Assembly (NCBI GenBank): GCA_903910705.1
Contig: CAIWAN010000038.1
Location: 1-38,608 of the forward strand
Source: an uncultured Candidatus Marinamargulisbacteria bacterium
GTDB lineage: Bacteria > Margulisbacteria > Riflemargulisbacteria > GWF2-35-9
Reading direction: 5' to 3'
Length of the DNA stretch: 38,608 bases
The notes beneath the pieces are model-generated. The model had not been told where the DNA came from, searched no databases, and saw nothing but the letters and a program-made list of their open reading frames with translations. Shown piece by piece: positions 31,189 through 38,490 of the stretch. Positions within the stretch are counted from its first letter, which is position 1. Each line of letters starts with the position of its first letter. A program made the translations under genes and the position numbers.

Positions 31189-32178
31189 CTACGTAACTTT
31201 ATTGTACAGAGCGTGGGCTCTTCCTAACTCTTCCTTGATCTCGTCTCTCAATTCCTTCGGCTCAAGCACCTCAACATTGCTGCCAAAGCTCATAATCCAA
31301 CCACTAATTTCGGACAGACCATCGATGTCGAGATCCATGATGATCGAACCATCGTCAAGTTCCTGCGTGGCTTGCGTTTTATGCCATTGTCGAGCAACGA
31401 TCCAAGGGGCAATGTCACTTGAGAATTTGAGTTTAACGTGAGCAGGTTCTCCCGGAATAATCCTCCACGCGTTACCAAAAAACTGCTCGGGCGTAAAACC
31501 CTTTTGGCGAACAAACGTCTTCTTCGTCGTTTCTAGTTTCTGGACATTGGCTAAGGAGAATATTTTTATCTCTTTTCGTAAATGGCAGAATCCAAGAACA
31601 TACCAACCCCCAAAAGTAAACCGCAAATGATAGGGGTCAAGCTCCCGACAGGTTGTCTTCTGGCTGTACGTCGTGTAGTACGTCATCGAAACCGTCTTGT
31701 TCTCTTGCAGGGCATTCACCATTTTGGAGTATATCGCCTCATCAAGAAGTGGCAGCTTTTTTTGTCCCATATCCATGGACATGAGGGGACTGATCAATGT
31801 GTCATCTACATCAATCCTGTCTGAGGACAACAATGCAAGTTTTTTAAATAGATTACTCATGGTTTCTTGGAGTTTGGGGCTGAGCTGGGGCATGATTTGA
31901 CGCATCAGCAGAAGGCTGACCCATTCCCCCTCGCTAATCTGCAATGGAGGCAAATTGGTTTTGTTTTCGGCAGTGTAATAATATCCATTTCTTCTTGTAT
32001 CAAATTCGATCTCGAAACCCATCTGATAACGCATAGCTTCGATATCACGAAGGATGGTGCGCGAGTTTAACTCAAAGCGTTTGGCTAAGGTTTGGCTGTT
32101 CGGATACGTCTTGTTGCGAATGAGTTGGTCGATCTCATAGATGCGGACAAGTGAATGACGGTCGATGGATTTAGGCAT
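31189..32178 (-). CDS. WYL-domain transcriptional regulator
   Basis: The N-terminal winged helix (residues about 8-50, YPNSQTLAKRFELNSRTILRDIEAM) is the DeoR/HTH_11 type. A WYL domain follows, with ELDPYHLRFTFGGWYVLGFCHLRKEIKIFSL, then a WCX C-terminal extension with VEVLEPKELRDEIKEEL. WYL domains bind ligands, possibly nucleic acids, and such regulators are often found next to phage-defence genes. The 329-residue length is normal. It starts 3 nt after a PD-(D/E)XK gene. The ribosome site is weak, suggesting coupling. Confidence 0.92.
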   Translation of the reverse strand: MPKSIDRHSLVRIYEIDQLIRNKTYPNSQTLAKRFELNSRTILRDIEAMRYQMGFEIEFDTRRNGYYYTAENKTNLPPLQISEGEWVSLLLMRQIMPQLSPKLQETMSNLFKKLALLSSDRIDVDDTLISPLMSMDMGQKKLPLLDEAIYSKMVNALQENKTVSMTYYTTYSQKTTCRELDPYHLRFTFGGWYVLGFCHLRKEIKIFSLANVQKLETTKKTFVRQKGFTPEQFFGNAWRIIPGEPAHVKLKFSSDIAPWIVARQWHKTQATQELDDGSIIMDLDIDGLSEISGWIMSFGSNVEVLEPKELRDEIKEELGRAHALYNKVT

Positions 32179-32181
32179 GGT

Positions 32182-32841
32182 TCACTTGCTTTCAATAAGC
32201 CAACCATTATCATCAGACACGTAGTTATGATATTCCCTGTATATTTGGGAGGATAGAAATGTATGTACTTTCTTATCTTTCTCGTACGTCGTGCCCATAA
32301 GCATATCAAGAATATCTTCCCAGAAAATAAACATGGTATCGAGAGCATCTTTAGGAAGATTTCTGAGTCTACTATTTGGATTACCAAGTGCATTATTGAA
32401 ACTTTCTTTTCTGATGAGGAGATAGAAAGACACCTTGAGCCCTAATTTTTTGAGTTCTATGTGGCGATTTATGTTCTTTTTAATATCGTCATCGTAATTC
32501 CAGTCAGAGTGGAGTTTAGCTTCGATGGCTACTAAGTTCTTTCTACTAGGACTTTGAATTAAGATGTCTGCGAACTCTCCATGGTCTGTTGTTATTTGTC
32601 CGAATCTAATCGAATGGTTATCAAAACTAATGTGAATATCATTTGGGTCAAGGTCAACGGAAACAACCGGAAGTTTTTTGTTGAGGGGCGAGGTTGGGTT
32701 CGATAATATCGAAATCAATCCTTTAATTCTTTCATCGTATCCCTCTATAAATTCATTGCATAAATATCCACCAAAGATTTTATAGTATAAATTCCGTTCC
32801 TTGTTTGATTCGAAAATAGTCGGCGATTTAGTAAATATCAT
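32182..32841 (-). CDS. PD-(D/E)XK nuclease-like protein
   Basis: The family is not recognised beyond the fold. A probable nuclease core is seen at residues about 88-112: GEFADILIQSPSRKNLVAIEAKLHSDW, with an Asp followed at the usual distance by ExK (EAK). A downstream Lys-rich helix and SFYLLIRKE strand fit the fold. The 219 residues contain no DNA-binding domain. GGAGGAATAA precedes the ATG. It sits between surE and the WYL regulator with gaps of 17 and 3 nt. Base composition is AT-rich compared with surE. Confidence 0.55.
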   Translation of the reverse strand: MIFTKSPTIFESNKERNLYYKIFGGYLCNEFIEGYDERIKGLISILSNPTSPLNKKLPVVSVDLDPNDIHISFDNHSIRFGQITTDHGEFADILIQSPSRKNLVAIEAKLHSDWNYDDDIKKNINRHIELKKLGLKVSFYLLIRKESFNNALGNPNSRLRNLPKDALDTMFIFWEDILDMLMGTTYEKDKKVHTFLSSQIYREYHNYVSDDNGWLIESK

Positions 32842-32858: not shown

Positions 32859-33629
32859 TTACTCATTGTTCTTTTGAAGACTCTGTCTCAACTCCTCATG
32901 TCCCTGATGGGCATCAAAACTCAGCTTTATTGGGGTAATCGATACAAACCCTCGCGATACGGCGCCAACATCCGTATCTTCTGGATGATCAACCTTAAAG
33001 GTACCCTCGACTTCGCAAAGCTGATGCGATGAGTCAGATACTTCCCGATACTGGCCGTTCGGAGAATGGATCAATCGTTTGGTAATCCGGCTTATATCCG
33101 AGATTTCACCGACTGAGGTCGTTGGAATATTAATGTTAAGAACAAACTGATTATCAAGATCCCAATGACCTAGAATCCAATCCAAAGCAGCAACACTTCG
33201 TTCATAATGGATTTCTTTAGGCGAATAATCATCAATTGATAAGGCAATAGACGGAATGCCATGGGCCTGAGCTTCGAGCGCAGCCGATACTGTACCTGAA
33301 TATTGGATATTAAACCCTGTGTTGGCTCCCGCATTGATGCCAGACACAACTAAGTTAGGGTAACTCGGGAGCAACTCATACAAAGCTAGTTTTACACAAT
33401 CTACTGGCGTTCCATGTACCGCCCATCGCTTAAAGTCTTTGGTGTGTCCATCAATATTAACAGTAACTTTCACCGGCTCGGCTATCGTGATCGAAAACGC
33501 CTTTCCGCTTTGGTTCTCGGCAGGAGCCACAACGCTAACTTGCCAACCTTTCTCTAAAAAATACTCACTTAGGACATGAATCCCTTGCGAGTGAATGCCA
33601 TCATCATTAACGATCAAAACATGTTTCAA
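32859..33629 (-). CDS. surE: 5'-nucleotidase SurE
   Basis: SurE is a metal-dependent nucleoside monophosphate phosphatase with some exopolyphosphatase activity, linked to stress survival. The N-terminus HVLIVNDDGIHSQGIHVL carries the Asp-Asp metal ligands. NQSGKAFSITI, GTPVDCVKLAL and VVSGINAGANTGFNIQYSGTVSAALEA are the standard active-site blocks. The 256-residue length is typical. The start is TTG, one base after the HD gene stop, preceded by GGAGCGATAGG. It lies among accessory genes, which is unusual for this housekeeping enzyme. Confidence 0.94.
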   Translation of the reverse strand: MKHVLIVNDDGIHSQGIHVLSEYFLEKGWQVSVVAPAENQSGKAFSITIAEPVKVTVNIDGHTKDFKRWAVHGTPVDCVKLALYELLPSYPNLVVSGINAGANTGFNIQYSGTVSAALEAQAHGIPSIALSIDDYSPKEIHYERSVAALDWILGHWDLDNQFVLNINIPTTSVGEISDISRITKRLIHSPNGQYREVSDSSHQLCEVEGTFKVDHPEDTDVGAVSRGFVSITPIKLSFDAHQGHEELRQSLQKNNE

Positions 33630-33630
33630 C

Positions 33631-34215
33631 CTATCGCTCCTTTATCGGCAAATCTTCTTCAATTACGGCGGCTGTCCAACGATCAGCAAAATGGGTTAAC
33701 AATAGAAGCGGCTGTTCATGATGGTAATACTCAAGGTTAACCACGCCCCCCGTTGTCGGATATAGCCCGTCATGAGCCGCAATGGCTTGTACCTCTTCAG
33801 GGAACAGTGTCACAAATTTTGAGATAAGATGAATACTTTGCGTGGCGATATTGATGCTGACGTCTTCAGGATTCACTTTATACGTCATATTGCGATTCTT
33901 GATCTCCCACTCATTTTCATTCTTGAGGTAATGCGGGATACCCGGAAATCCGACCTTCCCGAGATCATGGAAGAGCCCAACGATGACACAGCTCTCATCA
34001 CTAATCTGGGGTGCAAGCGTTTCTTTTAACTTCAGAAGCGTGTTGGCAACGCCAACGGAATGTTGTAACAACCCGCCCTCAACATTAAGATGAAATCTCG
34101 TGCTAGCAGGGGATGTAAGCCAAGTCGTTTCGGCTTCGAGGAAGGCAACAAGAGCTGCAACTTCGGATTTACGATTGATGATCTTTTCTAGGAGTTGGGG
34201 GTAGCTATTTTGCAC
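33631..34215 (-). CDS. HD-domain hydrolase
   Basis: HD-domain proteins are metal-dependent phosphohydrolases. The motif order is GGLLQHSVGVANTLLKL (His), VGLFHDLGKVGFPG (His-Asp), IAAHDGLYP and LLLLTHFADRW (final Asp). All metal ligands therefore look present. The 194-residue protein is close to a single HD domain with a short helical N-terminus. The substrate is unknown; nucleotides or an oligonucleotide are possible. The start is GTG at 34215, overlapping the previous gene by 11 nt, with a GGAG 11 nt upstream. SurE follows with one base between. Confidence 0.8.
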   Translation of the reverse strand: MQNSYPQLLEKIINRKSEVAALVAFLEAETTWLTSPASTRFHLNVEGGLLQHSVGVANTLLKLKETLAPQISDESCVIVGLFHDLGKVGFPGIPHYLKNENEWEIKNRNMTYKVNPEDVSINIATQSIHLISKFVTLFPEEVQAIAAHDGLYPTTGGVVNLEYYHHEQPLLLLTHFADRWTAAVIEEDLPIKER

Positions 34216-34936
34216 TAGAGATAGTCTCCGACTTAATGATTTCAGAAAGATCCTTAATACGTTTCTCGGTCATCATATATCTAGAAAAAAATGGCGTTAA
34301 GATGACACTTTTTCCCTGAACATGATACAACTCTATACTTCCATCATTATTTTTTATAATTGGTTCATACAAATTCAGCAAAACTTTAAAATCCTTCCAT
34401 CCTTGATAACCAAAACAAATTGTTGTTGAAGGTTGTGTTTCTTCCCAAAATCTGTGCAAAATTGGGAATCTATCTTTGCGAACAATATTTTGATAATCAT
34501 CTAATGACATATCCTTATGCAACTCAAAAAGCTGAGTATAAGCATCAGGCAACATACCCTTAAACTTCTTTTTTCCAAGGGGAAATAAGTTTGCCTGAAA
34601 AATCCTACTCTGGTTCAGGAACAAACGGCTATTTGAATAGGCGACGTAATCATCTCTTTTACCATTATAAGTTGCATCAAATCCCGAATTTAAAATAACA
34701 GCACTCATGATATCTACTACTTTTGTGAACTTATTACCTGCTCGTTTCCGATTACCCTCGATTTCACCTTTTTCAACTTCCATAAAAGGATTTATATACC
34801 GATTTAGAAGTTCAATATTTGTCTCAGACCACTCGTCAGCCTCCTCTAATCCGATGAACCAAATGCCATCTTTTTGAGGGTCGCCCCATCCATTACATTT
34901 CATTAGTGTCTGGAATCGTTCATTTCCTATTCTCAT
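34205..34936 (-). CDS. Unknown protein, possible uracil-DNA glycosylase-like fold
   Basis: Not recognised with certainty. The order of strands recalls the uracil-DNA glycosylase fold: GIWFIGLEEADEWS (like motif A), FQANLFPLGKKKF, STTICFGYQGWKDF, then VILTPFFSRYMMTEKRIKDL where motif B would be. The canonical catalytic residues and HPSxxxR are not present, so glycosylase activity is not claimed. There are 243 residues and many Lys and Asn codons, AT-rich in use. GGAGG precedes the ATG. A fragment related to the peptide at 38299 lies just upstream. Confidence 0.35.
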   Translation of the reverse strand: MRIGNERFQTLMKCNGWGDPQKDGIWFIGLEEADEWSETNIELLNRYINPFMEVEKGEIEGNRKRAGNKFTKVVDIMSAVILNSGFDATYNGKRDDYVAYSNSRLFLNQSRIFQANLFPLGKKKFKGMLPDAYTQLFELHKDMSLDDYQNIVRKDRFPILHRFWEETQPSTTICFGYQGWKDFKVLLNLYEPIIKNNDGSIELYHVQGKSVILTPFFSRYMMTEKRIKDLSEIIKSETISSAK

Positions 34937-34946
34937 AATTTCCTCC

Positions 34947-35027
34947 TTAATTCTCTACCCATGATACACCATTATAGTCGATGGGTACGCCATAAATTGT
35001 CGTTGCTGAAATACTAGATTTGGTTAT
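34947..35027 (-). pseudogene. Fragment resembling the tail of the 63-residue peptide gene
   Basis: In this frame 26 sense codons end in TAA just before the ribosome site of the next gene. They contain SATTIYGVPIDYN, which matches STTVYVVPADYN at the end of the peptide at 38299-38490. There is no ATG, GTG or TTG: the frame is closed upstream by TAA at 35030-35028. The stop of the 204-residue gene lies inside it in another frame. It may be a remnant left by recombination, or a tail reached by frameshift from the upstream gene. Confidence 0.45.
34970..35005. repeat. 36-bp dispersed repeat, copy 1
   Basis: This matches 38310-38345 at 32 of 36 bases, in the same orientation. Both copies lie shortly upstream of a gene start on the minus strand (34936 here) and encode the TTxYxVPxDYN stretch. 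The four differences all fall in first or second codon positions, none in third positions. Confidence 0.7.
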
Positions 35028-35628
35028 TTAAGAATTCCGCTAGTTTCTGTGGTAATTCCTTGGGTTCATGTAAGTCAATTTGAAACATGGGGGTTGGTTC
35101 TCGAAAAGAAAGATCGTTGCTATATAACATCACCATATCGATCTCATGATGGTCTGCACTATCCGTAAAGATACGCTTCAATTCAGATTCTTCGGCAATT
35201 GTCATTTCGTTCTCAACAACGATACGTCCGCTTTGTTCATCGTATGAATAGTTGGGATGTTTAGCAATAAAGGCTGCGATATCCTTGTGGGGTGTTAATA
35301 GCGCGGTAGTCTCCCTTAAGCCACGAATATGATCCTGATAGAACTGCCAATCTGCCGACCCAATATACCTACTATCCAAGATTTCAGCTGCACAAGGGAT
35401 CGCAACCATATCTACGGAATTACGCACCGCTTGGTAGAGATAAAAATTGTTTAGACGACACCAGCCTAAAAGTGTTCCTAAAATTTCGGGATCATCACTA
35501 GCGACAAGTAGAACGTTCCCTCCGCCTGTCAGCAGTTCAACCTCCGGCTCATAGTAATAGGGCAAATCGTAGGTTTTAATCACTTCGCCATCGGCGTAGA
35601 CTCGGGTTGATTGGTCGGAGTGCGTCAT
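35014..35628 (-). CDS. Hypothetical protein (204 residues)
   Basis: Not recognised. The N-terminal third has a glycine-rich strand-turn ELLTGGGNVLLVASDDPEIL, which could belong to a Rossmann-like or other alpha/beta fold. AADWQFYQDHI-like aromatic segments and a charged C-terminal half follow. No membrane helix, signal or catalytic motif is evident. It starts 4 nt after the PDDEXK gene with no clear ribosome site, so it is probably translated by coupling. G+C is higher than in that neighbour. A sensor or partner of the nuclease gene is possible but not shown. Confidence 0.7.
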   Translation of the reverse strand: MTHSDQSTRVYADGEVIKTYDLPYYYEPEVELLTGGGNVLLVASDDPEILGTLLGWCRLNNFYLYQAVRNSVDMVAIPCAAEILDSRYIGSADWQFYQDHIRGLRETTALLTPHKDIAAFIAKHPNYSYDEQSGRIVVENEMTIAEESELKRIFTDSADHHEIDMVMLYSNDLSFREPTPMFQIDLHEPKELPQKLAEFLNNQI

Positions 35629-35632
35629 TATT

Positions 35633-36874
35633 TTAGGATGTGCTGTTTGAAGATTGGAAAGAACGTAGTATAAGTTCTTTAAGTGTTTCAGTTACTCCGG
35701 ATAGTTCATTGTATAGACTAATTATTATTTTTGCTGATTCTTCCCCGTTATCCCAGTTTTCAATTAAAACATTCCGTTTCACTTCCTTAAGATGCCAACG
35801 ACAGGGTTTTTCTTTCTCTAAGGTATATTCCTTAGAGATTTTATTATTCAAAACCTCTTCAATAAACTGTTTATGATTTTTGTCGGTCTGATTAAGCCCC
35901 TCCATCTCGAGGCAAAGCTTAATTATATATTCTTTTGAGTCCGGCTTTTCTCGCCCCACCCAACAAAAGAAAGCGAATGGATATTCGTGGTGGGTTTCCC
36001 CCCAAAATGGTCTCATTATAGGGTTCATTTGAAAATCAGGAATACTAAACCGAAACACATCTTTTTTTTTCTCAATTATCTTTATATTATCAATTTTTCT
36101 CAGTTCTTCTATAGGAAAAGTGAAATCAATTTTATATCCAATACTATAAATTCGGTCTATTGCATCTCTATGCTCAGCAAAGATCCCTCTACAAAGATCA
36201 TCTATTTCTTTATCCATATTCAACAACTCCTTCAATATTTTATTGTAATCATTAATAAACTGGTAGCTCGGTTTATCAGATTTATTTTTATTTTTTTTAA
36301 TCTCATCATCTAATATTTCGACAATATCCAAATAACTAGCCACAAAGTAGGAGTTGTGGCTTGGTGGCTCGGAAAAAAGAGTTAGATATATTGGGAGGAC
36401 TATGTGCTTCCTGTACGATTCCTTCACTTTCTTGTAATAAGTTTCCAGTTGATTGGTTCTTTCATCAGAATAGATCTTGTTTTCAATCAATAATACAAAT
36501 GTACCCTTCGTAGAAGTTGCCAAAATATCAATTTGATATTTCTCTCTTTCAATTATTAGATCCGAATAATCGAGATCCGAATAATCGTCGAGTGAACCAA
36601 TATTCTTAATAATGCGGGCACCACCTTCTAGAGCATCAACTTTGGGCTTATTTTCCTTGTTATTTATTGTCTTATATAGGAAACTTTTCAAAAAAGAATT
36701 TCCTAGCTCATGATTCCCTTTTGGATTTAGTAACCAAGCCAGCATATTTGAGTGACGGATTTCAAAAGACTCAATTCTAAGAATTCTAAATGGATTAAAT
36801 TCATTTAACTTTTTTGTTAGATTCTTTAAACCATCGTCCATTCTAAAAGCTTCGAGTTTATTCTCGATATTCAT
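35633..36874 (-). CDS. PD-(D/E)XK nuclease superfamily protein (PDDEXK_4-like)
   Basis: The N-terminal ESFEIRHSNMLAWLLNPKGNHELG is typical of the PDDEXK_4 family, in which a nuclease core follows. Here the core is EKYQIDILATSTKGTFVLLIENKIYSDERTNQLETYYKKV at about residues 113-151, with Asp and ENK. Proteins of this type are seen in restriction and defence loci, but most have no tested function. At 413 residues it has a long C-terminal region of unknown role. AGGAGG precedes the ATG by 10 nt. The gene is very AT-rich, unlike the core genes. A 15-bp tandem duplication lies just before the nuclease core. Confidence 0.75.
   Translation of the reverse strand: MNIENKLEAFRMDDGLKNLTKKLNEFNPFRILRIESFEIRHSNMLAWLLNPKGNHELGNSFLKSFLYKTINNKENKPKVDALEGGARIIKNIGSLDDYSDLDYSDLIIEREKYQIDILATSTKGTFVLLIENKIYSDERTNQLETYYKKVKESYRKHIVLPIYLTLFSEPPSHNSYFVASYLDIVEILDDEIKKNKNKSDKPSYQFINDYNKILKELLNMDKEIDDLCRGIFAEHRDAIDRIYSIGYKIDFTFPIEELRKIDNIKIIEKKKDVFRFSIPDFQMNPIMRPFWGETHHEYPFAFFCWVGREKPDSKEYIIKLCLEMEGLNQTDKNHKQFIEEVLNNKISKEYTLEKEKPCRWHLKEVKRNVLIENWDNGEESAKIIISLYNELSGVTETLKELILRSFQSSNSTS
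36559..36588. repeat. 15-bp direct tandem repeat, two copies
   Basis: GATCCGAATAATCGA is repeated once, in phase with the reading frame, and adds a second YSDLD unit to the nuclease-like protein. The last base differs between copies. Confidence 0.8.
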
Positions 36875-36966: not shown

Positions 36967-37275
36967 TCAATCCTCCCGTACAAAATATGCATCTCCGATT
37001 CGACGCGGATAGTCATTAACGGTGTAAGTGGCTCCATTATAGCTTTTGGACTCATAAATCTCTCCTTTTTTGAAGAATGCGTGCTTTCCTCCTGTGTATT
37101 TTAGTTTTCTTGCACATGTTCTATCCTGAAATAATTTCCGAATATTGGGATGTAATATTTTAAAAATTTCCTCAATAGTTATAAACTTAATTGGAATGGC
37201 CTTTTGATTAAAGAAGCCTAGAAGCTTATGACATAGAGCTTCGTTCTCAAATGATGCAATATGATTTCTTTTCAT
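36967..37275 (-). CDS. Small hypothetical protein (101 residues)
   Basis: Not recognised. The start at 37275 is chosen because AAGGAGGGAG lies just before it; a longer frame from 37341 would overlap the 52-residue ORF upstream. The protein is basic, with helices around FENEALCHKLLGFFNQKAIPIKFITIEEIFKIL and a C-terminal beta-rich part, KGEIYESKSYNGATYTVNDYPRRIGDAYFV. It might be a small DNA-binding or partner protein of the operon. It follows the 52-residue ORF after 16 nt. Confidence 0.6.
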   Translation of the reverse strand: MKRNHIASFENEALCHKLLGFFNQKAIPIKFITIEEIFKILHPNIRKLFQDRTCARKLKYTGGKHAFFKKGEIYESKSYNGATYTVNDYPRRIGDAYFVRED

Positions 37276-37291
37276 ATATAATCTCCCTCCT

Positions 37292-37450
37292 TCAATTTGG
37301 ATTATGCGAGTCATTCTTTTCAAGGATTCCCGAAATAACACCGAAAAAGAAATCTTTGGGGCTCTTGATCCGAGGGTGATCGACCTTCGCTGCCCATTGT
37401 AAGATCTGAAAGTTTCTAGCTACCAAGTTGATCGTTTTCATGTTTTTCAT
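37292..37450 (-). CDS. Small hypothetical ORF (52 residues), coupled to the FtsZ-like gene
   Basis: The ATG overlaps the stop of the FtsZ-like gene as ATGA, and AAGGAAG lies just upstream within that gene. The reading frame gives MKNMKTINLVARNFQILQWA at the N-terminus, then a basic, aromatic segment (KSPKDFFFGVISGILEKN). No family is recognised. The four-base overlap, the ribosome site and the absence of another frame in this stretch argue that it is real. It may be a membrane-associating or DNA-binding accessory peptide. Confidence 0.5.
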   Translation of the reverse strand: MKNMKTINLVARNFQILQWAAKVDHPRIKSPKDFFFGVISGILEKNDSHNPN

Positions 37451-38289
37451 TTTTCTTCCTTTCTTGAATATGCGAAGCCTAAGATCAGCCCTATATTGTC
37501 AGCGAGAGCATTATCTAAAATCGTTCCCGTTGTAAAAACCGTGTCCTCGTCGGGATATGACCGCGTGAGGATGTATTCAACTTGGCTCACCGTTAAGTCT
37601 TCACTCCCTGCGACAAAAACAATATATCGTGAAGGCGGGCTCGATTGACGAGTCAATGTCTGCACAAAATCCTTGGTAATTATTGGCGCTTGTTCTTGAT
37701 ACGTTTCCGTTTTCATCGAATAACTTTGAATCACAACATACGCGATATCTGCGTACAACTCTGGGGTTTTCATCGTCGTTTTATACCAATCATGTCCAAA
37801 GAGGATGGCCGCAGTCGGATAGCATTCGACTGACTTTTGAACGCCCCAATCAACGATCAATCTCATCGTAAAATCAAAAGGCATGAGGAATAAGGCAAAT
37901 AACGACTCTCGTAGGGTTAGCGCTATATCTCTGACTCGATTAAACTCGTCAACGTCAGAAGCGCTACTGGCCATGGAAAGCAACGTGCCGATAGATGCGT
38001 ATAGAATGACGCGGATATTTTTGGCCTTGAGCTTTTTTAGAAAGACGGTAAGGTTGTCATAGGACATTCCATCCCTCATATCAACAAACAAAAGAATGGT
38101 GCGATCTTTGTGGGTCACGATGTCTACGTCAGGAACAAAGGCTAAATCAAACGTGTCTTCATCACGCTCAATCATACAGGTTCGACAATTAAAAAGTGTG
38201 TCTGTAAAGAGTTTTGCTCCCAGATGGTCCGAAAAACTGTTTTTGCCTACCGTGATAATTTGAAGATTCTGAGATGGATAGTCTGTCAT
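37447..38289 (-). CDS. Divergent FtsZ/tubulin-like protein lacking the GTP-binding loop
   Basis: The 280-residue protein has no plain family match by eye. Its C-terminal part (about residues 221-273), SRYIVFVAGSEDLTVSQVEYI through DEDTVFTTGTILDNAL and ADNIGLILGFAYS, follows the pattern of the FtsZ C-terminal domain: GVLxNITGGxDLxLxEV, then DxxxIFGxVIxxxLxDExxVTVIATGF. The N-terminal LQIITVG strand and RTILLFVDMRDGMSYDNL resemble the first and fourth nucleotide-domain strands. However, the GGGTGTG phosphate loop is replaced by DMRDGMSYDN, so GTP binding is unlikely. AGGAGG precedes the ATG. A peptide gene ends 9 nt upstream. Function unknown; a non-polymerising relative is possible. Confidence 0.5.
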   Translation of the reverse strand: MTDYPSQNLQIITVGKNSFSDHLGAKLFTDTLFNCRTCMIERDEDTFDLAFVPDVDIVTHKDRTILLFVDMRDGMSYDNLTVFLKKLKAKNIRVILYASIGTLLSMASSASDVDEFNRVRDIALTLRESLFALFLMPFDFTMRLIVDWGVQKSVECYPTAAILFGHDWYKTTMKTPELYADIAYVVIQSYSMKTETYQEQAPIITKDFVQTLTRQSSPPSRYIVFVAGSEDLTVSQVEYILTRSYPDEDTVFTTGTILDNALADNIGLILGFAYSRKEEK

Positions 38290-38298
38290 GGTTGCCTC

Positions 38299-38490
38299 CT
38301 ATTTACTCTCATTATAGTCGGCGGGTACGACATAAACTGTCGTTGATATGTTCGAATTTTGAAAGATTTTTGACTTATGCGGAGAATAGAGATAATAATC
38401 TCCGCATCCTGTTGTAGATCCACCGATTATTTCAGCCAAACTTTCCTTCGCGATGCTTAGAAAAATTTGGCTGGACGTCTTGTCATTCAT
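38299..38490 (-). CDS. 63-residue peptide with a double-glycine-like leader
   Basis: The N-terminal 24 residues end in SLAEIIGG, which resembles the double-glycine leaders of bacteriocin and RiPP precursors. The remaining 39 residues start STTGCGDYYLYS and contain one Cys and several Tyr, ending TTVYVVPADYN. No peptidase, ABC exporter or modifying enzyme is visible here, so a secreted-peptide role is only a hypothesis. The single ATG has no ribosome site. The gene ends 9 nt before the FtsZ-like start. The tail matches a fragment at 34947-35027. Confidence 0.5.
   Translation of the reverse strand: MNDKTSSQIFLSIAKESLAEIIGGSTTGCGDYYLYSPHKSKIFQNSNISTTVYVVPADYNESK
38310..38345. repeat. 36-bp dispersed repeat, copy 2
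   Basis: This copy is in the 3' end of the peptide gene, just before the FtsZ-like start. It matches 34970-35005 with four mismatches, same orientation. Confidence 0.7.

Follow-up and report, generated by a model that had tools for sequence, protein, structure and literature searches.

PhuZ and TubZ, the tubulins of phages and plasmids, are active filament-forming GTPases, and in FtsZ it is the face formed by the T7 loop and the C-terminal domain that makes contact with the next subunit. Divergent branches of the FtsZ/tubulin superfamily are also on record: retention of the GGGTG(S/T)G loop is the feature by which FtsZl1 and FtsZl2 were recognised, their C-terminal regions being different, FtsZl1 is set among VWA, GTPase and OmpA genes, and archaeal FtsZ paralogues without functional motifs are known (Makarova and Koonin 2010; PMC2875224). 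FtsZ is blocked by several phages; the T7 protein Gp0.4 contacts the synergy loop and strands of the C-terminal domain, and the Gp0.4-FtsZ complex activates CapRel immunity (PMC13423816, 2026). The WYL protein BrxR, which regulates defence islands, recognises inverted repeats that have a 5-bp spacer and adjoin a -10 box (PMC9122601). No FtsZ-derived component of a defence system was found in the literature searched.

The locus described here lies in a stretch of 38,608 nucleotides, called the window, which is contig C38 of a draft assembly of 119 contigs and 2.2 Mb. We use the name FL1 for the 280-aa product of the gene at 37447-38289 on the minus strand. The gene sits at the contig end, which is reached 118 nt past a 63-aa ORF. 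Comparisons were made across 74 species of the phylum, including a sister genome (G002), a member of another genus (G001) and a distant relative (G045). The features of the locus are as follows.

31189-32178, minus strand: WYL-domain transcription regulator with WYL and WCX domains
32182-32841, minus strand: 219-aa protein matching no family and missing from the G002 island
32859-33629, minus strand: SurE-like protein (by sequence), with a homologue in the G002 island
33631-34215, minus strand: HD-domain protein, 55% identical to a homologue in the G056 island
34205-34936, minus strand: 243-aa protein, no family
34987-35003, no strand: second copy of the operator, with one mismatch, before the 243-aa gene
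35014-35628, minus strand: 204-aa protein of no known family; the islands of G001 and G002 each encode a homologue
35633-36874, minus strand: 413-aa PDDEXK_4 nuclease of the PADLOC candidate defence family PDC-S26
36967-37275, minus strand: 102-aa protein starting at an internal ATG with a strong Shine-Dalgarno sequence, no family
37292-37450, minus strand: 52-aa ORF homologous to a segment within the C-terminal extension of a fused 446-aa relative (from the ORF list and homology)
37447-38289 (stop included), minus strand: FL1, 280-aa protein of predicted FtsZ fold without a GTPase site (from the ORF, alignment, fold search and profile comparison)
38295-38300, minus strand: strong Shine-Dalgarno sequence AGGAGG of FL1 (from the sequence)
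38299-38490, minus strand: 63-aa ORF, proposed as a leader peptide and judged a non-gene (from repeat matches and promoter content)
38311-38316, minus strand: TATAAT -10 box, separated from the operator by 10 nt
38327-38343, no strand: palindromic operator ACGACA-N5-TGTCGT before FL1
38378-38406, no strand: hairpin TGCGGAGA...TCTCCGCA, repeated on G002:C15
38422-38473, minus strand: 52-nt repeat identical to the final 6 nt of the G002 tRNA-Gln(CUG) gene and 46 nt of its flank, a possible attachment-site scar

The ORFs of 63, 280 and 52 aa, all on the minus strand, lie where the initial annotation had placed them, and it was correct in giving 9 nt between the stop of the first and the start of the second. 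It had also read the 280-aa product as a divergent FtsZ relative without the nucleotide loop, a reading that the fold search and the sequence statistics support. The AlphaFold2 model of FL1, built on a three-row alignment, is of moderate quality (pLDDT 69, pTM 0.76). When the model was compared with the PDB by Foldseek, all 50 of the 50 matches listed were FtsZ (best E 4.8e-11, TM up to 0.61), and in a viral structure library most of the matches that carry a name and have E<=0.001 were tubulin, FtsZ or PhuZ; the predicted FtsZ/tubulin fold runs over the whole length of the protein. No family in Pfam, NCBIfam, PADLOC or PHROGs matched FL1 above cut-off. We take FL1 for a pseudo-GTPase within the FtsZ/tubulin superfamily that, by prediction, retains the FtsZ fold.

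The family as sampled has three members from two draft genomes, FL1 itself and two homologues in G001 (49% and 43-44% identical to it) that sit within one island; among the 74 species only the window genome and G001 encode relatives, and none was found in plasmid or phage records, in viral contigs or in genome contigs other than those of G001. Aligned with FtsZ by profile-profile comparison, the three-row profile matches over residues 219-268 only, within the FtsZ C-terminal domain, with a score of 31.8. None of 300 column shuffles reached this value (mean 14.7, maximum 24.1) and the reversed profile scored 14.6, so that the C-terminal resemblance noticed in the initial annotation is borne out; it is kept in both G001 homologues. 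When the same profile was run against its own genome, the sole other match was the true FtsZ, at the same positions, with an E value of 0.05 that is weak alone. Across the phylum it matched its own FtsZ, the sister FtsZ and a protein containing only the C-terminal part of FtsZ at the 219-268 positions (E 0.01-0.05, among other weak hits). Global alignment of FL1 with hhalign gave nothing meaningful, and Pfam FtsZ_C found no match above cut-off in FL1 or its homologues. Among the three proteins conservation is highest in the core of the N-terminal domain, not in the FtsZ-like C-terminal domain. A membrane association had also been suggested, and we saw no sign of one for FL1.

The loops that make FtsZ a GTPase have decayed. 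In the alignment the T1 loop GGGGNN reads KNSFSD, the T4 loop GGGTGTG is missing and the T7 loop PGLINLDFAD is reduced to PEL----YAD, which leaves no NxDxxD motif. All three family members share these losses, with small variations in the two homologues, and the absence of the phosphate loop reported for FL1 therefore extends to its relatives. Secondary structure from the AlphaFold2 model, together with a MAFFT alignment, places the T7 loop near residues 177-181; a conserved catalytic aspartate had been considered when the loop was first aligned by hand to residues 200-213, and was dropped because of this placement. A canonical FtsZ is encoded elsewhere in the window genome (C90) and in most relatives. 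With its nucleotide-binding loops and its T7 synergy loop both degraded, FL1 should neither bind nor hydrolyse GTP in the manner of FtsZ, and GTP-dependent polymerisation is not expected of it. These losses therefore make FL1 a member of the superfamily that lacks what defines both FtsZ proper and FtsZl1/FtsZl2.

Upstream of FL1, the 63-aa ORF had been taken for a small leader-type peptide with a GG site, and FL1 for a peptide-binding relative acting with it. The ORF does carry a leader-like GG motif and does end 9 nt before FL1, but we judge it not to be a gene. Residues 6-24 are a translation of the 52-nt repeat, which is identical to the last 6 nt and the 46-nt flank of the G002 tRNA-Gln(CUG) gene, and the second glycine of the GG site falls outside this repeat. 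Its best matches in G002 sit directly after two tRNA-Gln genes; they are 3' flanks of these genes, and no conservation as a protein among real peptide genes was seen. The remainder is the hairpin and promoter DNA, the last third of the ORF being a 39-nt promoter 95% identical to one in G002. No Shine-Dalgarno sequence precedes its ATG, and no similar ORF stands ahead of the G001 homologues. The repeat, the hairpin, the promoter and the missing Shine-Dalgarno sequence contradict a GG-leader peptide gene, and because the ORF is a tRNA-flank repeat joined to FL1's own promoter, a partnership between FL1 and an upstream peptide finds no support; we give it next to no chance. The 52-nt repeat begins within the 3' end of the tRNA and its arms are inverted (AGCCAAA...TTTGGCT), so that it may instead mark the edge of the island as the scar of an attachment site. 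Elsewhere, tandem 5' halves of tRNA-Gln with short palindromic inserts between them occur at L099 (G000:C94, 1-540, minus strand) and at the end of L100 (G002:C233). They are followed by a small GIY-YIG-like ORF, ARAGORN calls no tRNA there, and the array looks like a mobile element targeting tRNA-Gln.

The downstream neighbour fared better. The start of the 52-aa ORF overlaps the FL1 stop as ATGA, as had been noted, and is preceded by the Shine-Dalgarno-like AAGGAAG; these signals point to co-translation of the two. Residues 297-353 of a 446-aa G001 homologue of FL1 are similar to the 52-aa ORF, with E values of 5.9e-6 when the genome was searched and 1.7e-8 when the sequences were compared locally, and because of this homology to the extension of a fused relative we regard the coupled ORF as a real gene. 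One genus thus has the two parts joined in a single protein and the other has them apart, and the 52-aa protein would be a detached C-terminal extension of FL1. Of the two neighbours whose conservation had been in question, then, the 52-aa unit is kept, fused in the G001 homologue, and the 63-aa ORF is not. A structure model of the 446-aa protein (pLDDT 41) was unusable. We also observed a run of A residues at the FL1 stop (window 37440-37455), where a -1 shift could carry translation from FL1 into the 52-aa ORF and give a joined product like the fused homologue.

The informative context of FL1 is the WYL-regulated, nuclease-containing island downstream, which the initial annotation missed. 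On one strand FL1 is followed in turn by the genes for the 52-aa and 102-aa proteins, the PDC-S26 nuclease, the 204-aa and 243-aa proteins, the HD, SurE-like and 219-aa proteins and the WYL regulator. The run combines a WYL gene, an inverted-repeat operator near the promoter, a defence-type nuclease and variable cargo; the PDC families are computational candidates for defence rather than proven defence genes. The G002 island, 80-91% identical in DNA over the shared parts, consists of the 204-aa gene, promoter, Nmad3, HD, SurE-like and WYL genes and is without FL1. FL1 is therefore variable cargo, being absent from an otherwise matching island. The G001 run comprises the fused FL gene, a zinc-ribbon protein, two small ORFs, an Mrr_cat nuclease (PDC-S02), the 204-aa homologue, a uracil-DNA glycosylase (UDG) and the second FL gene; no WYL gene lies on the G001 contig examined. 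The 243-aa protein of the window was considered as a uracil-DNA glycosylase, for which Pfam gives no support, UDG matches being confined to G001. The 204-aa protein (35014-35628) stays with the island in three genomes.

The palindrome before FL1 recurs in front of four more genes. A copy with one mismatch precedes the 243-aa gene of the window, another the Nmad3 gene of G002 and a third, 38 nt upstream, the fused FL gene of G001; a copy with two mismatches lies 23 nt before the WYL gene of G045. In these five genes the operator (0-2 mismatches) stands at constant spacing from a -10 box. For each, dinucleotide shuffling of the 100-nt upstream stretch gave as good a match in 0-1 of 1000 cases, and eleven other upstream stretches tested had 3-6 mismatches, so the operator is conserved across the FL1, G001 FL, 243-aa, Nmad3 and G045 WYL genes. 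From its position ahead of the WYL gene in G045 we infer that the WYL protein of the window binds the palindrome.

FtsZ derivatives turned up in other genomes of the phylum as well. A search of the 74 genomes with FtsZ_C found three proteins of ∼145 aa in distant Margulisbacteria that have the T7 loop and the C-terminal domain only, encoded at the following positions.

L052, 4824-5270: FtsZ-C-only protein
L051, 8728-9171: FtsZ-C-only protein
L050, 3218-3643: FtsZ-C-only protein

In G056 the gene is flanked by a WYL gene, by nuclease-like genes and by an HD gene whose homologue is found in the window; in G045 it comes after WYL and AbiU-like genes. The same partner of ∼100 aa comes after the FtsZ-C-only gene in both genomes (two of the three loci), and the third locus, in G050, is not clearly defensive and fits poorly. 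This handful of cases hints at a tie between FtsZ derivatives and defence loci. No FtsZ-C-only relatives were found in viral contigs, and the top "phage" record for these proteins was set aside as a full-length FtsZ among cell-wall genes that looks like bacterial DNA. A second, divergent FtsZ with an altered N-terminal domain region is encoded in G002 (L049:6702-7757, G002:C151), adjoining a CARF-HTH protein and a very large PDC-S37-like helicase (PADLOC candidate families).

We consider FL1 to be a pseudo-GTPase mimic of FtsZ in a defence operon, acting either as a decoy or as a poison, with a probability of about 0.5. It would be the first gene of an operon that stands behind a palindromic promoter/operator common to other island genes and is probably controlled through that operator by the WYL regulator. 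FL1 would then act by protein-protein contact alone, imitating an FtsZ subunit mainly through the face of its C-terminal domain, and would serve the island's response to phages. As mechanism we tentatively put first a function as decoy for, or sensor of, the FtsZ-blocking proteins of phages; by analogy with Gp0.4, FtsZ and CapRel, FL1 in a defence operon could be such a decoy or guard. A little less probable is that FL1 is an effector of growth arrest which, once the operon is derepressed, caps host FtsZ, co-assembles with it or occupies its partners. That FL1 heads a repressor-type operon and retains FtsZ-like sequence in its C-terminal domain speaks for such a division poison, as do the FtsZ-C-only proteins of its relatives, which keep the T7 loop and C-terminal domain that meet the next subunit and could cap host filaments and halt division. 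In FL1, however, the T7 loop is shortened and the top face is without nucleotide, which makes tight stacking on FtsZ doubtful, and no antitoxin-like partner was identified. The T7 loop is also a main contact of Gp0.4 on FtsZ, so its loss weakens decoy and capping alike.

Because the cut T7 loop both disfavours simple capping and removes part of the Gp0.4 footprint, we keep a further reading beside these two, ranked, by a narrow margin, after decoy and poison in that order: an assembly scaffold for the 52-aa, 102-aa and PDC-S26 proteins of the island, in which the fold is reused for purposes unrelated to FtsZ biology. Its fusion and fission with the 52-aa unit fits this, and so does conservation that peaks in the N-terminal core. 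We think it unlikely, as the nuclease is of family PDC-S26 in the window and PDC-S02 in G001, so that no constant client is known, and the presence in similar loci of FtsZ proteins reduced to the C-terminal domain points to the FtsZ face as the part that counts. Very unlikely is an ordinary chromosomal paralogue that regulates division as a housekeeping protein and came to lie in the island by accident. The archaeal paralogues without functional motifs provide a precedent (PMC2875224), but FL1 is absent from the matching island of the sister genome and from most of the phylum, shares its operator with other island genes and is present in two copies within one G001 island. The broader proposal, that broken FtsZ, as the whole fold without GTPase or as the C-terminal domain by itself, was recruited repeatedly in the phylum to serve WYL-regulated defence operons as a decoy or guard sensing phage division inhibitors, is doubtful. 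If FL1 does serve defence, bacteria would have recycled a broken cell-division protein to that end; a non-catalytic FtsZ relative heading a WYL-type defence operon, along with distant versions reduced to the C-terminal domain, would open the notion of a decoy or guard to direct tests in bacteria. The superfamily would then also be shown to include pseudo-GTPases with selected functions other than filament formation.

Set beside the known systems, FL1 resembles FtsZ in its predicted fold over the whole length and in the sequence pattern of its C-terminal domain, but differs in lacking the T1 and T4 loops, in its shortened T7 loop, in falling below detection by Pfam FtsZ_C and in its island location beside a canonical FtsZ in the same genome. 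Like FtsZl1 and FtsZl2 (PMC2875224) it is a divergent branch of the superfamily in an unusual gene context; unlike them it has no GGGTG(S/T)G loop and is set among WYL and nuclease genes. With PhuZ and TubZ it shares the superfamily fold, as weaker structural matches, although no relative of FL1 was found in phage or plasmid records. The island agrees with those of the BrxR type (PMC9122601) in its WYL regulator, its nuclease cargo and an inverted repeat with a 5-bp spacer beside the -10 box, whereas the arms are 10-11 bp there and 6 bp in the window operator, the WYL gene comes last in the window operon and no named complete defence system was recognised. The CapRel system (PMC13423816) likewise links FtsZ, a phage inhibitor of FtsZ and immunity, but there it is the host's real FtsZ that takes part, whereas here that role would fall to a dedicated non-catalytic relative encoded in the island.
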